A stretch of DNA of 64,000 nt from Ignavibacteriota bacterium (lineage in GTDB: Bacteria; Bacteroidota; Ignavibacteria; UBA10030; SZUA-254). This document shows, piece by piece, positions 43,506 through 52,485 of the stretch. Numbering within the stretch: the stretch's first letter is position 1; each line of letters begins with the position of its first letter. Location: contig JANYJZ010000034.1 of NCBI GenBank assembly GCA_025358305.1, positions 1 to 64,000 of the forward strand. The letters are read 5' to 3'. A model generated the notes under the pieces. It had not been told where the DNA came from, ran no database searches, and was given only the letters and a program-made list of their open reading frames with translations. The position numbers were made by a program, and so were the translations under genes.

Positions 43506-45149
43506 CTATACCTGGATCACACCGGGATTGAACGGGGCGAGCGTCGGGTTGTTTGAGGCCATTTCTACCCCTCGGGAGATGATCTGGCGCGTATCGGCCG
43601 GGTCGATGATGCCGTCCACCCAGAGCCGGGCCGCCGCGTAGAGCGGATCGAGTTCGATCAGGTACCGGCTCGAGATCTCATGCAAGAGCTTCGCGCGCTC
43701 TTCCGGCGTGATCTGATGTCCTTTGGCGGCGAGCTGGGAGAGCCGAATGCTCAAGAGCGTTTCGCTCGCCTGTTTCCCCCCCATGACCGCGATCTGGGCG
43801 GTCGGCCAGGCGAAGATAAGCCGGGGATCATATGCCTTGCCGCACATGGCGTAGTTGCCGGCGCCATAGCTGTTGCCGATGATGAACGTGAACTTCGGGA
43901 CGACACTGTTCGCCACCGCGTTCACCATCTTGGCGCCGTCTTTGATGATGCCCCCCTGCTCGGAGCGCGTTCCGACCATGAACCCGGTGACGTCCTGGAG
44001 AAAGACGATCGGGATCTTCTTCTGGTTGCAATTTAAAATGAACCGGGCGCCCTTGTCGGCGCTCTCGCTGTAGATCACGCCGCCGACCTGCATCTCGCCC
44101 TTCTTCGTCTTGACCACCGCGCGCTGGTTCGCGACGATGCCGACGGCCCACCCGTCGACGCGGGCGTACCCGGTGATGACCGTCTTCCCGTAGCCGGCCT
44201 TGTACTCGTCGAATCCCCCCGCATCGATGATCCGGTCGATGACCGCGTGCATATTGTACGGCTTCGCCCGGTCGTCCGGGATGATCCCGTAGAGTTCCGA
44301 CGGGTCGAACGCGGGCGCCTGCGGCGCGATCCGGTCGAACGGGGCCTTCGGGGAATGGCCGAGCTTGCTGATGAGGCTTCTGATCGTATCAAGGCAGACG
44401 GTGTCGTTCGGCATCCGGTAATCGGTCACGCCGCTCACCTCGGAGTGCATCTCCGCGCCGCCCAAATGCTCCAGATCGGCATCCTCGCCGATGGCGGCCT
44501 TCACCAGGAACGGCCCCGCGAGAAAGACGCTGCCGGTCTTGTCGACGATGAGCGCTTCGTCGCTCATGATCGGGAGGTATGCCCCTCCCGCCACGCACGG
44601 TCCCATGATCGCGGCGATCTGCGGGATCCCCATGGACGACATGACGGCGTTATTCCGGAAGACCCTCCCGAAATGTTCCTTGTCGGGGAAGATCTCGCTC
44701 TGCATCGGGAGGAATACGCCCGCGGAGTCGACGAGGTAGACGATCGGCAGGCGGTTCTCCATCGAGATCTCCTGGGCGCGCAGGTTCTTCTTGCAGGTCA
44801 TCGGGAACCAGGCTCCCGCCTTGACGGTCGCGTCGTTCGCGACGATGACGACGTCCCGGCCGTGCACCTTCCCAATGCCGAACACCGTCCCCGAGGAGGG
44901 GGCTCCGCCGTATTCCTCGTACATGCCGTGGGCGGCGAAGAGCCCGATCTCAAGAAAATAGCTCTCCGGATCGATGAGACGTTCGATCCGTTCCCGGGCG
45001 GTCATCTTCCCGCGCTTCTTGTGCTTTTCCGTGGCCTCGGCCCCGCCGCCGAGCTTCACGATGTCGCCTTTGCCGTTGAGGATGCGGACCATGTTCTTCA
45101 TATTGTCCGCGTACTTCCCGATCGTTTGTGCGCCGTCCAGTTTCGCCAT
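43506..45149 (-). CDS. Acyl-CoA carboxylase, carboxyltransferase (beta) subunit
   Basis: A 547-residue two-domain crotonase-fold carboxyltransferase of the propionyl/methylcrotonyl-CoA carboxylase class. Landmarks are KMTARERIERLIDP, VYLVDSAGVFLPMQ, GPCVAGGAYLPIMSDE, FLQDVTGFMVG, GNSYGAGNYAMCGKAYDP and MGGKQASETL. The phrase AGVFLPMQSEIFPD points to methylcrotonyl-CoA carboxylase beta (leucine breakdown) rather than propionyl-CoA carboxylase. It needs a biotin carboxylase/biotin-carrier subunit, which is not in the window. Its ATG shares one base with the upstream stop. Confidence 0.92.
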   Translation of the reverse strand: MAKLDGAQTIGKYADNMKNMVRILNGKGDIVKLGGGAEATEKHKKRGKMTARERIERLIDPESYFLEIGLFAAHGMYEEYGGAPSSGTVFGIGKVHGRDVVIVANDATVKAGAWFPMTCKKNLRAQEISMENRLPIVYLVDSAGVFLPMQSEIFPDKEHFGRVFRNNAVMSSMGIPQIAAIMGPCVAGGAYLPIMSDEALIVDKTGSVFLAGPFLVKAAIGEDADLEHLGGAEMHSEVSGVTDYRMPNDTVCLDTIRSLISKLGHSPKAPFDRIAPQAPAFDPSELYGIIPDDRAKPYNMHAVIDRIIDAGGFDEYKAGYGKTVITGYARVDGWAVGIVANQRAVVKTKKGEMQVGGVIYSESADKGARFILNCNQKKIPIVFLQDVTGFMVGTRSEQGGIIKDGAKMVNAVANSVVPKFTFIIGNSYGAGNYAMCGKAYDPRLIFAWPTAQIAVMGGKQASETLLSIRLSQLAAKGHQITPEERAKLLHEISSRYLIELDPLYAAARLWVDGIIDPADTRQIISRGVEMASNNPTLAPFNPGVIQV

Positions 45150-48100
45150 TACTTTCGTTCCTTTATTTCCGTCAGTTTCTGTTCTAATTGAGGCAGCCCG
45201 GAGGATGCCGGGTAGCCGCTCTTCAAACGGGTCACGTACTGTTCGGCTGCACTCGGGTCGCCGGCATCAAGATACGCGGAAGCGGTCTTCGTCAGGAGTT
45301 CTTCGTCCGTGATCTCTGTTTCCATCGGTTCGTATTGCTGCCGGAATGTCACTGCTGCCGCGTACATCTCCCCTGCCTCCTGAGATCGGTCGGCGACCGT
45401 CAGCATCTCCGCCAGACGCATGAGATAGCGCTCGTCGTTCCGGTGCGAGAGCTCGACGGCCCGTTCCATAACCCTGATGGGCATCGCCGATTCCTCTTTC
45501 AGCGTGGGGGAATTCTCCGACTGCCTCCAGGAGAAGTATTCCACCGCGTACGCCGAAAGGTAGACCGGATCATCCGGTTCGATCGCCGCGAGCCGCTGCA
45601 AGGCCCCGACGCGCTCCTCTGTCTGGTTCATCGCCCCGGCCACAGTGGCATAGAGCTCGAGCGCTTCTTTCTTCTGTGGATCCAGACGGAGGCACGCGTG
45701 AAGCGCCTCCACCGTTCGGCGGTAGTCCGCGTCCGCGACATTCCACTGGTACCGAGCGATATTGAGATAATCTTCCGCATTCAAGCTTAATCGGCGGTCA
45801 AGCACCGACTGCAGGAGCGTCGTATCGCCGGACGAATCCCGACGGTCGATCGCGCCCGTGAACTCCACGTGCGCATGTGTAAAGAACGAAATTGGAGCGA
45901 GAAATTCCAGCAACGGCCTCTTTTCAGAGTTCACCGGACCAGCCTCGTTGAGTCCGCGTCCTGAGATCTGCGTTGACAGAAATGCCGGCAATCCACGCAT
46001 TTGGATGCGTGCGAGTTCGCCGGCGACCAGGGGATCCCTGAGGCGGCGGGACATTTCGTCAAAATCGGGAGAGATCGGCTCCTTCGAACCGATGAGGACG
46101 ACGTCCAAGTCTGTTGGCGCCCAGACCATGACGTGCGGGAACGACCGGGAGAGCGTACGCAGGACGAGTGTAAAGACCGAGTCGTCGACGTCGTATGTGT
46201 GGAACCACTGCGCCAGGACGCCGTGGTCTTCGAGCCGGTCTTTGCAAAGATCGAAGAACTCCTCGGTAAAGAGATTGCCGATCCCGGCGATCCACGGGTT
46301 GGATGGCTCGCTGATGATCGCCGCGTACTTCTTCGGATGCACCTTGACGTAGGTGATCGCGTCATCGACGATCAGATGAAAACGCGGATCCTGCAACACC
46401 TGGTGGTTCGCGTCTGCGAAATACCCATTGCAATCGACGACCTCTTGGGAGATCTCCACGCACTCGACCGTCCGGACGGGATGCTGGAGGACGGAGCCCG
46501 GCGTGATCCCGCTCCCCAAGCCGATCACCAGGACGTCGCTCGAATCGGACGCGAGCATCATCGGTATCTGGGCCAGGAGGACCTGGGTCGGGAGGTCGTG
46601 CTCCGTGCTCGCGTCGGTCTTGCCATTGATGACCAAGGATCGCTCGCGCCTGCCGTCGTCGTTCGTGAATTCGTTCACTGCGACATTCGCCGTGACGCCC
46701 TCTTTGTACCAAAGAACCGTGCGCGCCTGAAGCTCCGTCAGGAACTCTCCATAGGACGGAGGCGCTTCCTTGAAGAACGCCCGGTAGACGCCGACGGAGG
46801 AGATGTTCTCATCCCACTTCGGCACTTCCACTCGGTACGCCACTCCCGCGAGAACGATAAGGGCGCAAATAGCGGCGGCGCGCGTTCCTGGAACGTTCGG
46901 ATCCTTGAGAAGGACGACGACGCCAAGCCCGGCGTTGATGAGCACCGCGATCTCGATCGACTGCTTCACACCGACGGCGGGTATGAGGATCAACCCCGTC
47001 ACGAGCGCGCCGGCCACGGCGCCGATCGTATTCACCGAAAAGATGCCGCCGATGCTCTTCCCCAGGGCCGTGATGTCCCCCGACGCGATCCTGCCGGCCA
47101 CCGGGAGCGACATGCCGGAGAGTGTCGTCGGGACGATCATGAGCGCGAAACAAAATCCGAACTCACAGAAAATGAAGACCGCAAACGCTCCCGGATCGTT
47201 CGAGAGGAGCCCCGAGAGCTTCCAAAGGTAGTAGGGCAAGCGTTCATAGAGCGGCAGCGTCGCAATCATGAAGATCGCCGTTCCGATCTGGCACCAGGCA
47301 AGGAGGCCCAGAAGATCGTTCTTCCGGGCAAGGATCTTGGAAACGATCCAGCTCCCAAGGACGATCCCGCTGATGAAGGCGATGAGCATGACGGTGAACG
47401 AATAGGTCGACGAGCCGAGAAGCGTTGTCAGCAGACGAATCCAACTCAACTCGTACACCATTGCAACGAAGCCGGAAACGCACGCGACGAGGATCGCGAG
47501 AGAAGTGAACCGGGAAGCCGGCTCGCTCGCCGTGCGTGCTGCTTTCTCCGCCTCGAGTGGTCGAGCAGAACGGCTCAGCGCGAGGGCCACAAATCCGACG
47601 ACGATATTGATGGCCGCCCCGACCCAGAGTGCGCCGTCGAGCGAAATGAGGCGAATGAGAAAGAAGCCGGCGAGCGCCGCGCCTGCGACCGCTCCGAGGC
47701 TGTTCATCCAATAGAGCCTCGCCACCATCGGGCCGGATTCGCTCAGATTCCGGGTCAGGGGCTTGAGAAGAATGGGAAGTGTCCCCCCCATGCAGAATGT
47801 CGGCAGGAGGAGCGTCGAGATGCTCAGGATGCATTTTAGGAACGTCAGAAGCGCCGGATGGGAGGAAAGGTCAAACCCGGAAGCCGCTCCAAGAAAGACC
47901 TTCTCCGCACCGAGCATCAGCAACGGATACACGGCGCAGTAAGCGCCGATAACGAGTTCAAGGGCTGCGTAGAGCCGCAAGGGGTTGGGTGACCGGTCGG
48001 CGGCTCTTCCCCAGTACCAGGCGCCCCAGGCCAGGCCTCCCATGAACGTCGCGAGAACGAACATATGGGAATAGGCGGTGCTGCCCATAAGGAGCGAGAG

Positions 48101-48193
48101 GTACTTCGACCAGGCGATCTCGTAGATGAGCCCGGAGATGCCCGAGCAGGCAAAGAGGAGGACGACGAACGTTTGGAGGCGGGGACGCTGCAT
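45149..48193 (-). CDS. Fused multi-pass membrane/spermidine-synthase-like protein with C-terminal TPR-like region
   Basis: A 1,014-residue protein. Residues 1-470 contain about 14 hydrophobic helices arranged like MFS/polyamine-synthase fusions. A spermidine-synthase-type Rossmann domain follows, with SAM-like motif VLVIGLGSGITPG near 549 and ISEPSNPWIAG near 624. The last 220 residues look like helical TPR repeats (ALHACLRLDPQKKEALELYA). Such fusions are widespread but few have known reactions; catalytic aspartates of true spermidine synthases are not clearly kept. It is embedded between acyl-CoA dehydrogenase and carboxylase genes. Polyamine synthesis should not be assumed. Confidence 0.8.
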   Translation of the reverse strand: MQRPRLQTFVVLLFACSGISGLIYEIAWSKYLSLLMGSTAYSHMFVLATFMGGLAWGAWYWGRAADRSPNPLRLYAALELVIGAYCAVYPLLMLGAEKVFLGAASGFDLSSHPALLTFLKCILSISTLLLPTFCMGGTLPILLKPLTRNLSESGPMVARLYWMNSLGAVAGAALAGFFLIRLISLDGALWVGAAINIVVGFVALALSRSARPLEAEKAARTASEPASRFTSLAILVACVSGFVAMVYELSWIRLLTTLLGSSTYSFTVMLIAFISGIVLGSWIVSKILARKNDLLGLLAWCQIGTAIFMIATLPLYERLPYYLWKLSGLLSNDPGAFAVFIFCEFGFCFALMIVPTTLSGMSLPVAGRIASGDITALGKSIGGIFSVNTIGAVAGALVTGLILIPAVGVKQSIEIAVLINAGLGVVVLLKDPNVPGTRAAAICALIVLAGVAYRVEVPKWDENISSVGVYRAFFKEAPPSYGEFLTELQARTVLWYKEGVTANVAVNEFTNDDGRRERSLVINGKTDASTEHDLPTQVLLAQIPMMLASDSSDVLVIGLGSGITPGSVLQHPVRTVECVEISQEVVDCNGYFADANHQVLQDPRFHLIVDDAITYVKVHPKKYAAIISEPSNPWIAGIGNLFTEEFFDLCKDRLEDHGVLAQWFHTYDVDDSVFTLVLRTLSRSFPHVMVWAPTDLDVVLIGSKEPISPDFDEMSRRLRDPLVAGELARIQMRGLPAFLSTQISGRGLNEAGPVNSEKRPLLEFLAPISFFTHAHVEFTGAIDRRDSSGDTTLLQSVLDRRLSLNAEDYLNIARYQWNVADADYRRTVEALHACLRLDPQKKEALELYATVAGAMNQTEERVGALQRLAAIEPDDPVYLSAYAVEYFSWRQSENSPTLKEESAMPIRVMERAVELSHRNDERYLMRLAEMLTVADRSQEAGEMYAAAVTFRQQYEPMETEITDEELLTKTASAYLDAGDPSAAEQYVTRLKSGYPASSGLPQLEQKLTEIKERK

Positions 48194-49676: not shown

Positions 49677-49708
49677 TGCCGGGTTATCCAAAAAAGGATG
49701 ACCCGGCA
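49677..49708 (-). terminator. Hairpin with oligo-T loop downstream of the zinc-finger/FG-GAP gene
   Basis: A 13-bp stem with one mismatch (49677-49689 with 49696-49708) has a loop of six T on the minus strand, 26 bp after the stop codon. There is only a short T-rich stretch after the stem, so it may be a weak terminator. Confidence 0.5.
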
Positions 49709-49733
49709 GGCCTGAGAAAAACAAAAGGGCCGA

Positions 49734-51203
49734 TCAGGGGTTTATAGTGGTCTGTGAAGTCACAGAATAATGCCGATTCCTGGTAACGCTTCCGAGGAAC
49801 CGCTCCCCATCCCAGTACTGGACGCCCTTGCGTAGCGACTCGAAATATGGATCATCAAGGCGCGAGGACAACTTGCCTTCCTGCTCAAACAACCTATGCG
49901 ACGCCGTAAATGAGTCGGACGCCCGGACGTTGATGCAGGTCATCGTGGAATCAAAGTAGTAATACAACGTTCCGCTTGACTGGCGCGCAGCCTCCTCTAT
50001 GGTGACTTCCATCATTCCATCATCGGTTATTCGAAGGTTTTGCACGACGTTCGTCACATCCGATGAATAGGTCATCAAGTCCGACAAGGGGAAGAGGATA
50101 TAATACTTCTCGGTTCCCGATCGGAATCCGGGCGGATAATACTGATCCGGGGCAGGGGCGCCGCCGTCCATCGCCCGAGGATCAAAGACGACGAGTGATG
50201 CGTGTTTCAGGCGATTATTCTGACCGCCGTAGACCAGTTCGTCCACGCCATCGTGATCGAGGTCTTTGTGGTCGAACTCTGTGAGTTGGCCAGGATGCCA
50301 ATATTCGCCAAGAAGCTTCCCATCGTTCGCATCGAGTCGGAGCAGCACATTCGGATGCCAGGGGTCATGCCGCGCCGCCGCCCACACCTCCACCTTGCCG
50401 GAATGCGCAAAATCCCCCGCCTCGATATGGTAGAACCGGTACAGATCGTTGTACTGTACGCCGCCAAGCGTGACGCTACGATGAAGTTCGTACCTCCATC
50501 GTTCATTCCCGTCACCGTTATAGCACACGACGAGATTGTTCTCGGGAAGGGTTCCGTTTGTCCATCCGAAGATGCAGAGGATCTCGTTTCCGCCATCCCC
50601 GTCGACATCCTGTATTCTCACCGCCCGATCGGGATGGCCCCGAAAACTTGACGAAAAGTTCGGAACATTAAAATTGGTCCCCAGATACTTCCGCCAAAGC
50701 TCGTCGCCGTGCGCGTTCTTCGTCACAAGGAATCCATCGATAACGTCCACAATGATCGGGTTTTTATCAAATCTGGGCCGTAGCGAGATGAGCGCGAACG
50801 CCAGGAGAGCCGCCGCAAATGGCACTGCGGCAAACGAACGTACGGGATGGTGCCGAACGAACCGCAGAGCGCGCTTCGATACGGATTGCCGGTATGGTTC
50901 GATGACTTCTGCGAAGGACTCGGCCAAACTATCGTTCTTTTCCGCCAGTCTGGCATTTCGTCCCGCCAGGGAATGACGATCGCCCGAGAGGAGCCTGTGC
51001 GCGAGAGCCGCGTCCTTTTCCGAGGCAGGGAGCTCCAAGGCAGATCGGACGCTCTTGTAGAATTCCTGCACTTTATAATAAAGCTCGCGGCAAAGGGAGC
51101 ATTGCTCAAGATGACGGGCGATCCTCTCCCGCTCGTCCCCGCCAAGGGTTTCCGGAGAGAGATCGAGTGTTCGAAGCTCAATTTCTGTGCAGTGTTGTGC
51201 CAT
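49734..51203 (-). CDS. Membrane protein with anti-sigma zinc finger and periplasmic FG-GAP-like region
   Basis: A 489-residue protein. The N-terminus has a ZAS-type zinc site, Cys5 ... His31-x3-Cys35-x2-Cys38 (HLEQCSLC), as in anti-sigma factors. A basic, helical linker leads to one transmembrane segment (about 121-142). The C-terminal 345 residues should be periplasmic and contain FG-GAP/VCBS-like calcium loops, DVDGDGGNE (199-207) and DLDHDGVDE (314-322), suggesting a beta-propeller. The upstream gene encodes a possible sigma-like protein. A transmembrane anti-sigma sensor is the natural hypothesis, but no partner is proven. The ribosome site is short (aagg directly before ATG). Confidence 0.8.
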   Translation of the reverse strand: MAQHCTEIELRTLDLSPETLGGDERERIARHLEQCSLCRELYYKVQEFYKSVRSALELPASEKDAALAHRLLSGDRHSLAGRNARLAEKNDSLAESFAEVIEPYRQSVSKRALRFVRHHPVRSFAAVPFAAALLAFALISLRPRFDKNPIIVDVIDGFLVTKNAHGDELWRKYLGTNFNVPNFSSSFRGHPDRAVRIQDVDGDGGNEILCIFGWTNGTLPENNLVVCYNGDGNERWRYELHRSVTLGGVQYNDLYRFYHIEAGDFAHSGKVEVWAAARHDPWHPNVLLRLDANDGKLLGEYWHPGQLTEFDHKDLDHDGVDELVYGGQNNRLKHASLVVFDPRAMDGGAPAPDQYYPPGFRSGTEKYYILFPLSDLMTYSSDVTNVVQNLRITDDGMMEVTIEEAARQSSGTLYYYFDSTMTCINVRASDSFTASHRLFEQEGKLSSRLDDPYFESLRKGVQYWDGERFLGSVTRNRHYSVTSQTTINP

Positions 51204-51333
51204 CCTTCAGTTCTTCAACGTAGTATGTAAAACCAGTGCCATCATTTCTTGATCCTCTCTTATCTATCCTATTCCAACAATTGGGTGCACCTGCTGAAAC
51301 ACGCCGAATAAAGAGTAAAAGAGCCGCCACTCC

Positions 51334-52371
51334 TCATAGGTCCGAAAGAACGCGGCTCGCCACCTCTTGACGGGCAAGCCGAAAGAGATACTCCATCTTC
51401 GCACGATAGTCTTGTTCATAATCTGCAGGCTCAATCTGCAGGTGGCGGCTGAGTTTGATGTAGAGCGACTCCGACGGCTCACTCCCGGCAAACCACTCGT
51501 CCAGGACGTCCTCCAGGGCATTGAAGATCCCGCGCGCCTCACTGTCGGTCAACTTGCCCTTGACGAGATACGTGAGGAGGATCTTCTCCTTCAATGCGTT
51601 CTCGACGTCGATGCGAATCCGCTGGAGCTCTTCCTGGCTCAATCCGTCTAACGACCAGGGATGATCCACGGACAGCTCTGGGTTGAAGTCGCTTTGAAAG
51701 ATCCCTTTTACCAGCCATACAAGCTCGATGAGCGGAATGCTGCGCCGGAAGTCACGTTGATTGCAAACGATGCCATGGAGAATCTCGAGCATCTGGGGGA
51801 TCGAGCTGCGGGAGCTGATCGCTGGGAGGAAGATGCGCCCAAGTTCATCCTGCGGAAACGGACCGAGCTCCTCGAGCGCATCGCCTTGGCGCGGGACGAG
51901 ACACAGGCCCCTGAAGTCCTTCTGCAAGGCGAAGTGACAGGAATCCTTCAACGCCTCCCGAATGTTCCGGTGAATGTGCGAGCCGGAAGGATCCATCTGC
52001 GAGTACAACCTGGCGAGCTGCGCTTCCGTGAATCGCAGAAGGAAACTCTTGTAGGCAAGGAAGAGCCCGTGATCCGGGATCGTGTCAAGCGTCCCGTCGA
52101 TCGAATCGATGAACTTGTGAAGCTTATAGAATCGGTCGTCCCCATCCCTGCTGAATGCTTCGGCGATGCAGTCGTACGCGAGATCGGTGACGGTGAGTCC
52201 TTGCCGGACGCACAGCGATGTGAGGGACGAGCGGAGAAATGTTAGGTGAGCCTGGATGATCGCACGGGAGAGCCTGATCAGCTCGGAGAGTTGATTCTCG
52301 GTAATATCATCCGAATCGATCCGCTTGAGAGCCAGTCTCAGTGGGTCCGTTGGTGCGCTTACCAGATGCAT
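51334..52371 (-). CDS. Unknown protein, possible divergent sigma-factor-like regulator
   Basis: A 345-residue soluble protein, mostly helical, with no clear family. Residues 30-85 (LSRAIIQAHLTFLRSSLTSL and GLTVTDLAYDCIAEAF) have a faint resemblance to sigma region 2 of ECF-type factors, with a DLxxDxxxxxF pattern where region 2.2 has DLxQDxF. I see no certain region-4 helix-turn-helix; the C-terminus is acidic and helical. The main support for a sigma-like role is the next gene, which has an anti-sigma zinc finger. It has its own promoter and an 80-nt leader. It could equally be an adaptor or an unrelated helical protein. Confidence 0.65.
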   Translation of the reverse strand: MHLVSAPTDPLRLALKRIDSDDITENQLSELIRLSRAIIQAHLTFLRSSLTSLCVRQGLTVTDLAYDCIAEAFSRDGDDRFYKLHKFIDSIDGTLDTIPDHGLFLAYKSFLLRFTEAQLARLYSQMDPSGSHIHRNIREALKDSCHFALQKDFRGLCLVPRQGDALEELGPFPQDELGRIFLPAISSRSSIPQMLEILHGIVCNQRDFRRSIPLIELVWLVKGIFQSDFNPELSVDHPWSLDGLSQEELQRIRIDVENALKEKILLTYLVKGKLTDSEARGIFNALEDVLDEWFAGSEPSESLYIKLSRHLQIEPADYEQDYRAKMEYLFRLARQEVASRVLSDL

Positions 52372-52456
52372 GAGTGCTCGTTAGGCTTCACTGCTCAGGA
52401 CAATACGTTGAGAGACGGGACATATATGGATCCTCCGAGGACTGATGCTCGGAAAC

Positions 52457-52485
52457 AAGGTAGCAATAACCGCCTACGTAGTCAA
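52457..52485 (-). promoter_or_regulatory. Promoter of the sigma-like/zinc-finger pair
   Basis: Minus-strand TTGACT (52480-52485) and TACCTT (52457-52462, followed by G) are exactly 17 bp apart. This gives a leader of roughly 80 nt to the ATG at 52371. Confidence 0.72.

Follow-up and report, generated by a model that had tools for sequence, protein, structure and literature searches.

The closest described systems are the pairs of ECF sigma factors and class I ZAS anti-sigma factors, such as ChrR-SigE, RslA-SigL and RsiW-SigW. In class I anti-sigma factors, a three-helix bundle binds sigma-4 and a fourth helix binds sigma-2; zinc and zinc-less forms are mixed within groups, and about 65% of the proteins are predicted to be membrane-bound (PMC7406223). 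A gene pair was analysed in a window of 64,000 nucleotides of Ignavibacteriota DNA (contig JANYJZ010000034.1, positions 1 to 64,000). Like the ECF pairs, it is a two-gene unit on one strand with a cytoplasmic His/Cys ZAS domain, and like the membrane-bound members of class I its second product has one span and a C-terminal sensor. By analogy, the pair would fit the class I plan of a cytoplasmic ZAS, one span, a periplasmic sensor and a co-encoded helical partner of two domains. Unlike in the ECF pairs, the first product, here called REG, has 345 residues with a long middle part and no match to sigma models, and the sensor is an FG-GAP propeller. The literature search, which covered few subscription journals, returned no paper joining FG-GAP, a sigma factor and Lon protease, and none joining Ignavibacteria with sigma and anti-sigma factors. 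The evidence set out below suggests that the pair is probably a transmembrane switch of the sigma/anti-sigma type, with a very divergent sigma-70-like output protein.

The gene pair and the membrane-bound partner

A preliminary description of this DNA had reported two reading frames, of 345 and 489 residues, and both were confirmed with their coordinates (Table 1). They are separated by 130 bp on the minus strand, so that co-transcription, as judged from the sequence, is plausible. The claim that one promoter drives both genes was not confirmed, as the TTGACT hexamer at 52485-52480 (minus strand) is accompanied by a poor -10 element (TACCTT) and is absent from the promoter-scan list. A search of the regions upstream of 72 regulators for a REG autoregulation motif found no enriched hexamer or bipartite word.

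Table 1. Features of the gene pair, with positions in the window.
Feature	Position	Strand	Basis or remark
REG, 345-aa ORF	51334..52371	-	ORF list; family alignment (n = 74); AlphaFold2
REG residues 7-126, domain resembling sigma regions 1.2-2.4	51994..52353	-	VIA-align
REG residues 58-73, GLTVTDLAYDCIAEAF, conserved motif in register of sigma region 2.1/2.2	52153..52200	-	
REG residues 243-345, C-terminal helical domain, sigma-4-like or Q-like by structure	51337..51645	-	
ZAS-membrane span-FG-GAP propeller protein, 489-aa ORF, putative anti-REG sensor	49734..51203	-	
ZAS domain, residues 1-57; zinc ligands His4, His31, Cys35, Cys38	51033..51203	-	
Single membrane span, residues 123-141	50781..50837	-	hydropathy 2.19
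Periplasmic beta-propeller, residues 146-456	49836..50768	-	model pLDDT there mostly 85-97
FG-GAP calcium-type loop 1, DVDGDGGNE, residues 199-207	50583..50609	-	
FG-GAP calcium-type loop 2, DLDHDGVDE, residues 314-322	50238..50264	-	
Terminator-like hairpin and T-run, 3' of the pair	49700..49712	-	weak: 1 found vs 3.4 expected in shuffles

In the AlphaFold2 model of the 489-residue protein (pLDDT 83.8), four helices at the N-terminus are followed by the span and then by a beta-propeller, which starts at about residue 146. The helices, predicted at residues 7-15, 22-34, 36-57 and 62-73, would provide the three-helix bundle and the fourth helix. The window copy carries H31, C35 and C38 together with both His4 and Cys5, either of which could be read as the N-terminal zinc ligand. 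It was found that H4, H31, C35 and C38 are invariant in the 31 aligned partners, that Hx3Cx2C occurs in 47 of 48 partners, and that the N-terminal ligand is His in nearly all 48. The site had previously been read as Cys5, His31, Cys35 and Cys38. The last three ligands stand, but Cys5 was rejected as a family ligand, as it is not conserved and its place is taken by His4. In the window copy the spacings are His4-X26-H31 and Cys5-X25-H31, of which the latter (C-X25-H) is that of RsrA, with the zinc motif H/C-X24/25-H-X3-C-X2-C (PMC6432622). Curated models fall below threshold on this domain (zf-HC2, 14.7 bits with the cut-off at 22.2, E 0.033; RsiW, E 0.12), and the protein is therefore called ZAS-like, on the basis of motif and helices. 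These two features, and not the curated score, place it among the ZAS anti-sigma factors, with a putative inhibitory role.

The one membrane span claimed earlier was recovered; a conserved His119-Pro120 precedes it and a conserved D-x-N-P follows. Beyond the span, the propeller aligns with integrin alpha chains and other propellers in VIA-align (Z about 13, about 230 residues). The two reported FG-GAP calcium loops are present as DxDxDG at D199 and D314, inside the predicted beta-propeller. The FG-GAP_3 model remains sub-threshold (17.9 bits against a cut-off of 26.9; E 0.0048), and the assignment to the propellers is based on the fold and the DxDxDG loops, of which partner proteins have only 0-3 canonical copies each. 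Both features are shared with the FG-GAP propellers of integrin alpha chains; unlike those, the present propellers are bacterial and are joined through one span to a ZAS or a Lon-like domain. One 820-residue partner (L070:3423-5885) has two tandem propeller repeats behind one ZAS domain.

Distribution and architectural variants

The assembly of the window contains a single copy of REG. Among 60 near relatives, REG was found in 38 and the propeller protein in 37, in the same genomes and often as two to five paralogous pairs; a profile search detected REG in 76 of the 197 genomes covered for the class and in 53 of the 395 covered for the phylum. The two genes are adjacent and on the same strand in nearly all cases, and the propeller partner is just downstream in 60 of 74 REG loci. 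In 44 of these 74 loci, REG is followed by a ZAS-span-propeller gene and in 16 by a gene for a small protein and then one for a Lon-like propeller protein; 10 have the small protein only and four have neither. Some of the loci with the small protein only (e.g., L129, L131 and L151) have a Lon-like propeller gene upstream. On a maximum-likelihood tree of REG, the architecture requires seven changes, compared with 27.6 after shuffling, and none of 200 shuffles was as low. Distances between REG proteins correlate with those between their partners (mirror-tree r 0.72), a value equalled in 3 of 5000 shuffles in which partners were exchanged among the paralogous pairs of a genome. REG and its ZAS partner thus co-evolve.

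Taken together, the recurrence, the architecture that tracks the phylogeny of REG and the co-evolution indicate that the two proteins belong together. The adjacency that the preliminary description had proposed to check is conserved in dozens of relatives, beyond chance, and its view of the pair as a signalling unit is well supported by this neighbourhood, by the tree and by the co-evolution within genomes. Its remark that a propeller fused to a ZAS domain is unusual holds for the literature searched; within the REG family, however, this is the common form, and Lon-like and lectin variants occur as well. Damaged loci were also seen: a transposase-like ORF (IS200-type by eye) splits one pair between REG and the propeller gene (L055:1805-2233), and in another locus a stop or frameshift breaks REG into two ORFs while the propeller partner is intact (L057:5446-6481).

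The three-gene form consists of REG, a protein of 250-280 residues with an N-terminal ZAS domain, and a protein of 700-850 residues in which a Lon_C-like region, a span and a propeller follow each other. The propeller is the same as in the two-gene partner. The zinc ligands are kept in some of the small proteins and lost in others, and among class I anti-sigma factors, too, a single family can include members with and without zinc (PMC7406223). The Lon_C model reaches at best 19.8 bits against a cut-off of 21.1 (E 6e-4 at best), and the label "Lon-like" was chosen for this reason. At the matching columns, Ser is present in 28 of 28 sequences and Lys in 27 of 28, which points to a putative Ser-Lys dyad as in the Lon-type (S16) proteases. 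Unlike those proteases, the three-gene sensors score below the cut-off, show no AAA+ match and are fused to a span and a propeller or lectin part. The 489-residue protein of the window has no Lon-like domain.

In one family (f57), the third protein combines a Lon-like region and a span with two Laminin_G_3 lectin domains and has no propeller. At four REG loci (L222, L223, L224 and L234), the Lon-like membrane protein has about 1030 residues and, in place of a propeller, two concanavalin-A/laminin-G lectin domains (read in L224 and L234); its gene adjoins one for a ZAS-like protein of 156-163 residues. At another locus (L112:1-7525), three consecutive Lon-like-span-propeller genes follow a single regulator gene and a single gene for a small ZAS-like protein. 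In L149:6005-7510, a receiver domain is naturally fused to the N-terminus of REG (Response_reg E 2.9e-24), and this fusion supports the role of regulator that had been assigned to the 345-residue protein. Judged from this anatomy, swaps of sensor, protease and receiver around a constant REG would be expected of a regulatory output module.

The sigma-like character of REG and its alternatives

No consistent Pfam or NCBIfam family was found across 42 REG members, for which none of the Sigma70 family models was reported either. The statement that the 345-residue protein matches no known family was therefore right for these databases; REG nonetheless constitutes a large recurring family. Profile searches of the PDB, with the whole of REG and with each domain, gave no sigma chain and only chance-level or unrelated matches. 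When hhalign was used to compare the REG profile with profiles of ECF and RpoD proteins, taken from the same genome and from related ones, the scores lay within those of reversed and block-shuffled controls. On this ground the sequence profiles were not accepted as proof of homology to sigma factors, and only the register of the alignments agreed with the structure.

The AlphaFold2 model of REG (pLDDT 90.8, pTM 0.62) is all-helical except for one hairpin. A Foldseek search of this model against the PDB and viral models gave nothing at E < 0.001. VIA-align was then run on the Foldseek candidates, and sigma-70-family chains made up 37 of the 50 matches listed, in a constant register; they come from E. 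coli, Thermus, Caulobacter, Clostridioides, Mycobacterium, Streptomyces, Staphylococcus and others. The N-terminal domain aligns with many sigma factors over 86-92 residues at 2.8-3.1 Å with Z values of 5-7.6, although for helical proteins a Z under 13 may reflect a common arrangement. Bipartite sigma alignments extend to residue 345 with a domain shift, and the rmsd over both domains is 17-20.

Sigma region 2.1/2.2 is the part with which sigma factors bind the polymerase clamp. The most conserved N-terminal motif of REG (GLTxxDLAxDCIAELF) is placed on this region by the best hhalign alignments with RpoD and with an ECF-like sigma factor (RpoD QGLSLGDLINEGN), which are below significance and whose register fits that of the structural alignment. 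The motif includes three positions that rank among the most conserved in the N-terminal domain (D63 in 65, D67 in 69 and F73 in 72 of 74 aligned members), and the weak sigma-region-2-like stretch described earlier is thus present as a pattern. The model suggests that a sigma-like fold of REG is likely; it is likely and not more because structural alignment and a fitting motif register speak for it while the profiles are without significance. Membership of the sigma-70 family is unproven, as no sequence match to models of sigma regions 2, 3 or 4 was obtained. The earlier sigma-like claim gains support from structure, with nothing significant in sequence. Overall, the preliminary reading holds in outline and in part of its detail.

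That neither sequence comparison nor Foldseek matched REG significantly to sigma factors would also suit a helical adaptor of another kind, active in transcription or signalling (e.g., by binding RNA polymerase or DNA) and held by the ZAS-type domain. The C-terminal domain of REG aligns with lambda Q by structure (VIA-align, 92-101 residues at 3.6-3.7 Å) and weakly with Ros by profile, at an E of 0.02 that was judged too weak for Ros to be accepted as a relative; a helix-turn-helix register in this domain can only be inferred. Such an adaptor is nevertheless considered unlikely, since class I anti-sigma factors bind sigma-2 and sigma-4 (PMC7406223) and REG is predicted to have two domains of just these kinds.

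Another reading is that REG is a sigma mimic which, by partner switching as in the PhyR-NepR-EcfG system, occupies the ZAS domain and frees another, true ECF sigma factor, itself binding no promoter. PhyR consists of a receiver and a sigma-like domain; REG, set beside it by description, would likewise be a sigma-like protein, and the receiver fusion in one relative recalls PhyR. A sigma-like fold devoid of sigma sequence hallmarks would fit a mimic, and the 15 Sigma70_r2 matches in the host genome, most of ECF-like length, could be the real output. However, REG has no ECF sigma gene as a regular neighbour, and the co-evolution is with a dedicated ZAS partner. Unlike in the PhyR system, the ZAS domain of the two-gene form is already tied through the membrane to its own sensor, so that no switching partner is in sight. 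All this makes a mimic rather improbable.

The neighbours of REG differ from locus to locus, and no recurrent adjacent target gene was found at the REG loci. An AbiEii-type nucleotidyltransferase gene is directly upstream of REG in two of them (L043:4993-5667 and L044:1084-1758; Pfam basis in L043), and in the window a gene for a 1014-residue membrane protein that contains a spermidine synthase domain (45149-48193) lies two genes downstream of the pair. No plasmid carriage was seen in the one relative tested. Large type IX-sorted proteins are encoded near several REG loci; with a sorting-domain model that was seeded from the tested loci themselves, type IX C-terminal domains numbered 4.5 per 100 kb there and 2.7 per 100 kb in 20 control regions of related genomes. 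This difference is not significant, and a link to type IX secretion was rejected. Given this result, the otherwise varying neighbours and the protease and receiver swaps, which fit regulation, it is very improbable that the ZAS serves only as a zinc cap for the structure and that the pair, instead of being a switch, is an accessory of surface proteins or of type IX secretion, as the sorted proteins near several loci might suggest.

Proposed mechanism and significance

In the sigma/anti-sigma-type switch preferred here, REG would be the output protein, made up of a sigma-2-like N-terminal domain, an extra hairpin with a helical middle part and a sigma-4-like C-terminal domain. The cytoplasmic ZAS domain of the 489-residue protein would hold REG at the inner membrane. 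A ligand or partner on the periplasmic integrin-like propeller may then change or remove this grip, and the freed REG would direct transcription. In the three-gene branches, the Lon-like domain occupies the position of the two-gene ZAS domain. This suggests that REG is released there when the small protein is degraded: a separate ZAS or zinc-less ZAS-like protein would be the substrate of the cytoplasmic Lon-like Ser-Lys protease of the sensor. Proteolytic release of an output protein would be shared with the anti-sigma factors RseA and RsiW. Unlike those, which are cleaved at site 1 and site 2, the three-gene form would use a cytoplasmic Lon-like Ser-Lys domain that is tethered to the membrane as part of the sensor protein. 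The sigma function, the binding of ZAS to REG, the direction of the signal and the target of the protease are all inferred in this scheme.

On a wider view, REG could represent an undescribed class of sigma-like regulators with a dedicated signalling system, a proposal made tentatively and at somewhat less than even confidence. The system would comprise, besides REG, an anti-sigma-like protein, of the ZAS type or zinc-less, and a membrane sensor with a propeller or lectin part; on its cytoplasmic side the sensor would carry either the ZAS itself or a Lon-like protease by which the anti-sigma-like protein is destroyed upon a signal. If the proposal is correct, an entire class of sigma-like regulators would be escaping annotation pipelines in Ignavibacteria and their sister groups, as its members are too divergent for sequence models. 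The family would also offer a natural series from the fusion of a sensor with an anti-sigma-like domain to the fusion of a sensor with a protease, in which the path from a periplasmic signal to the release of a regulator becomes testable.
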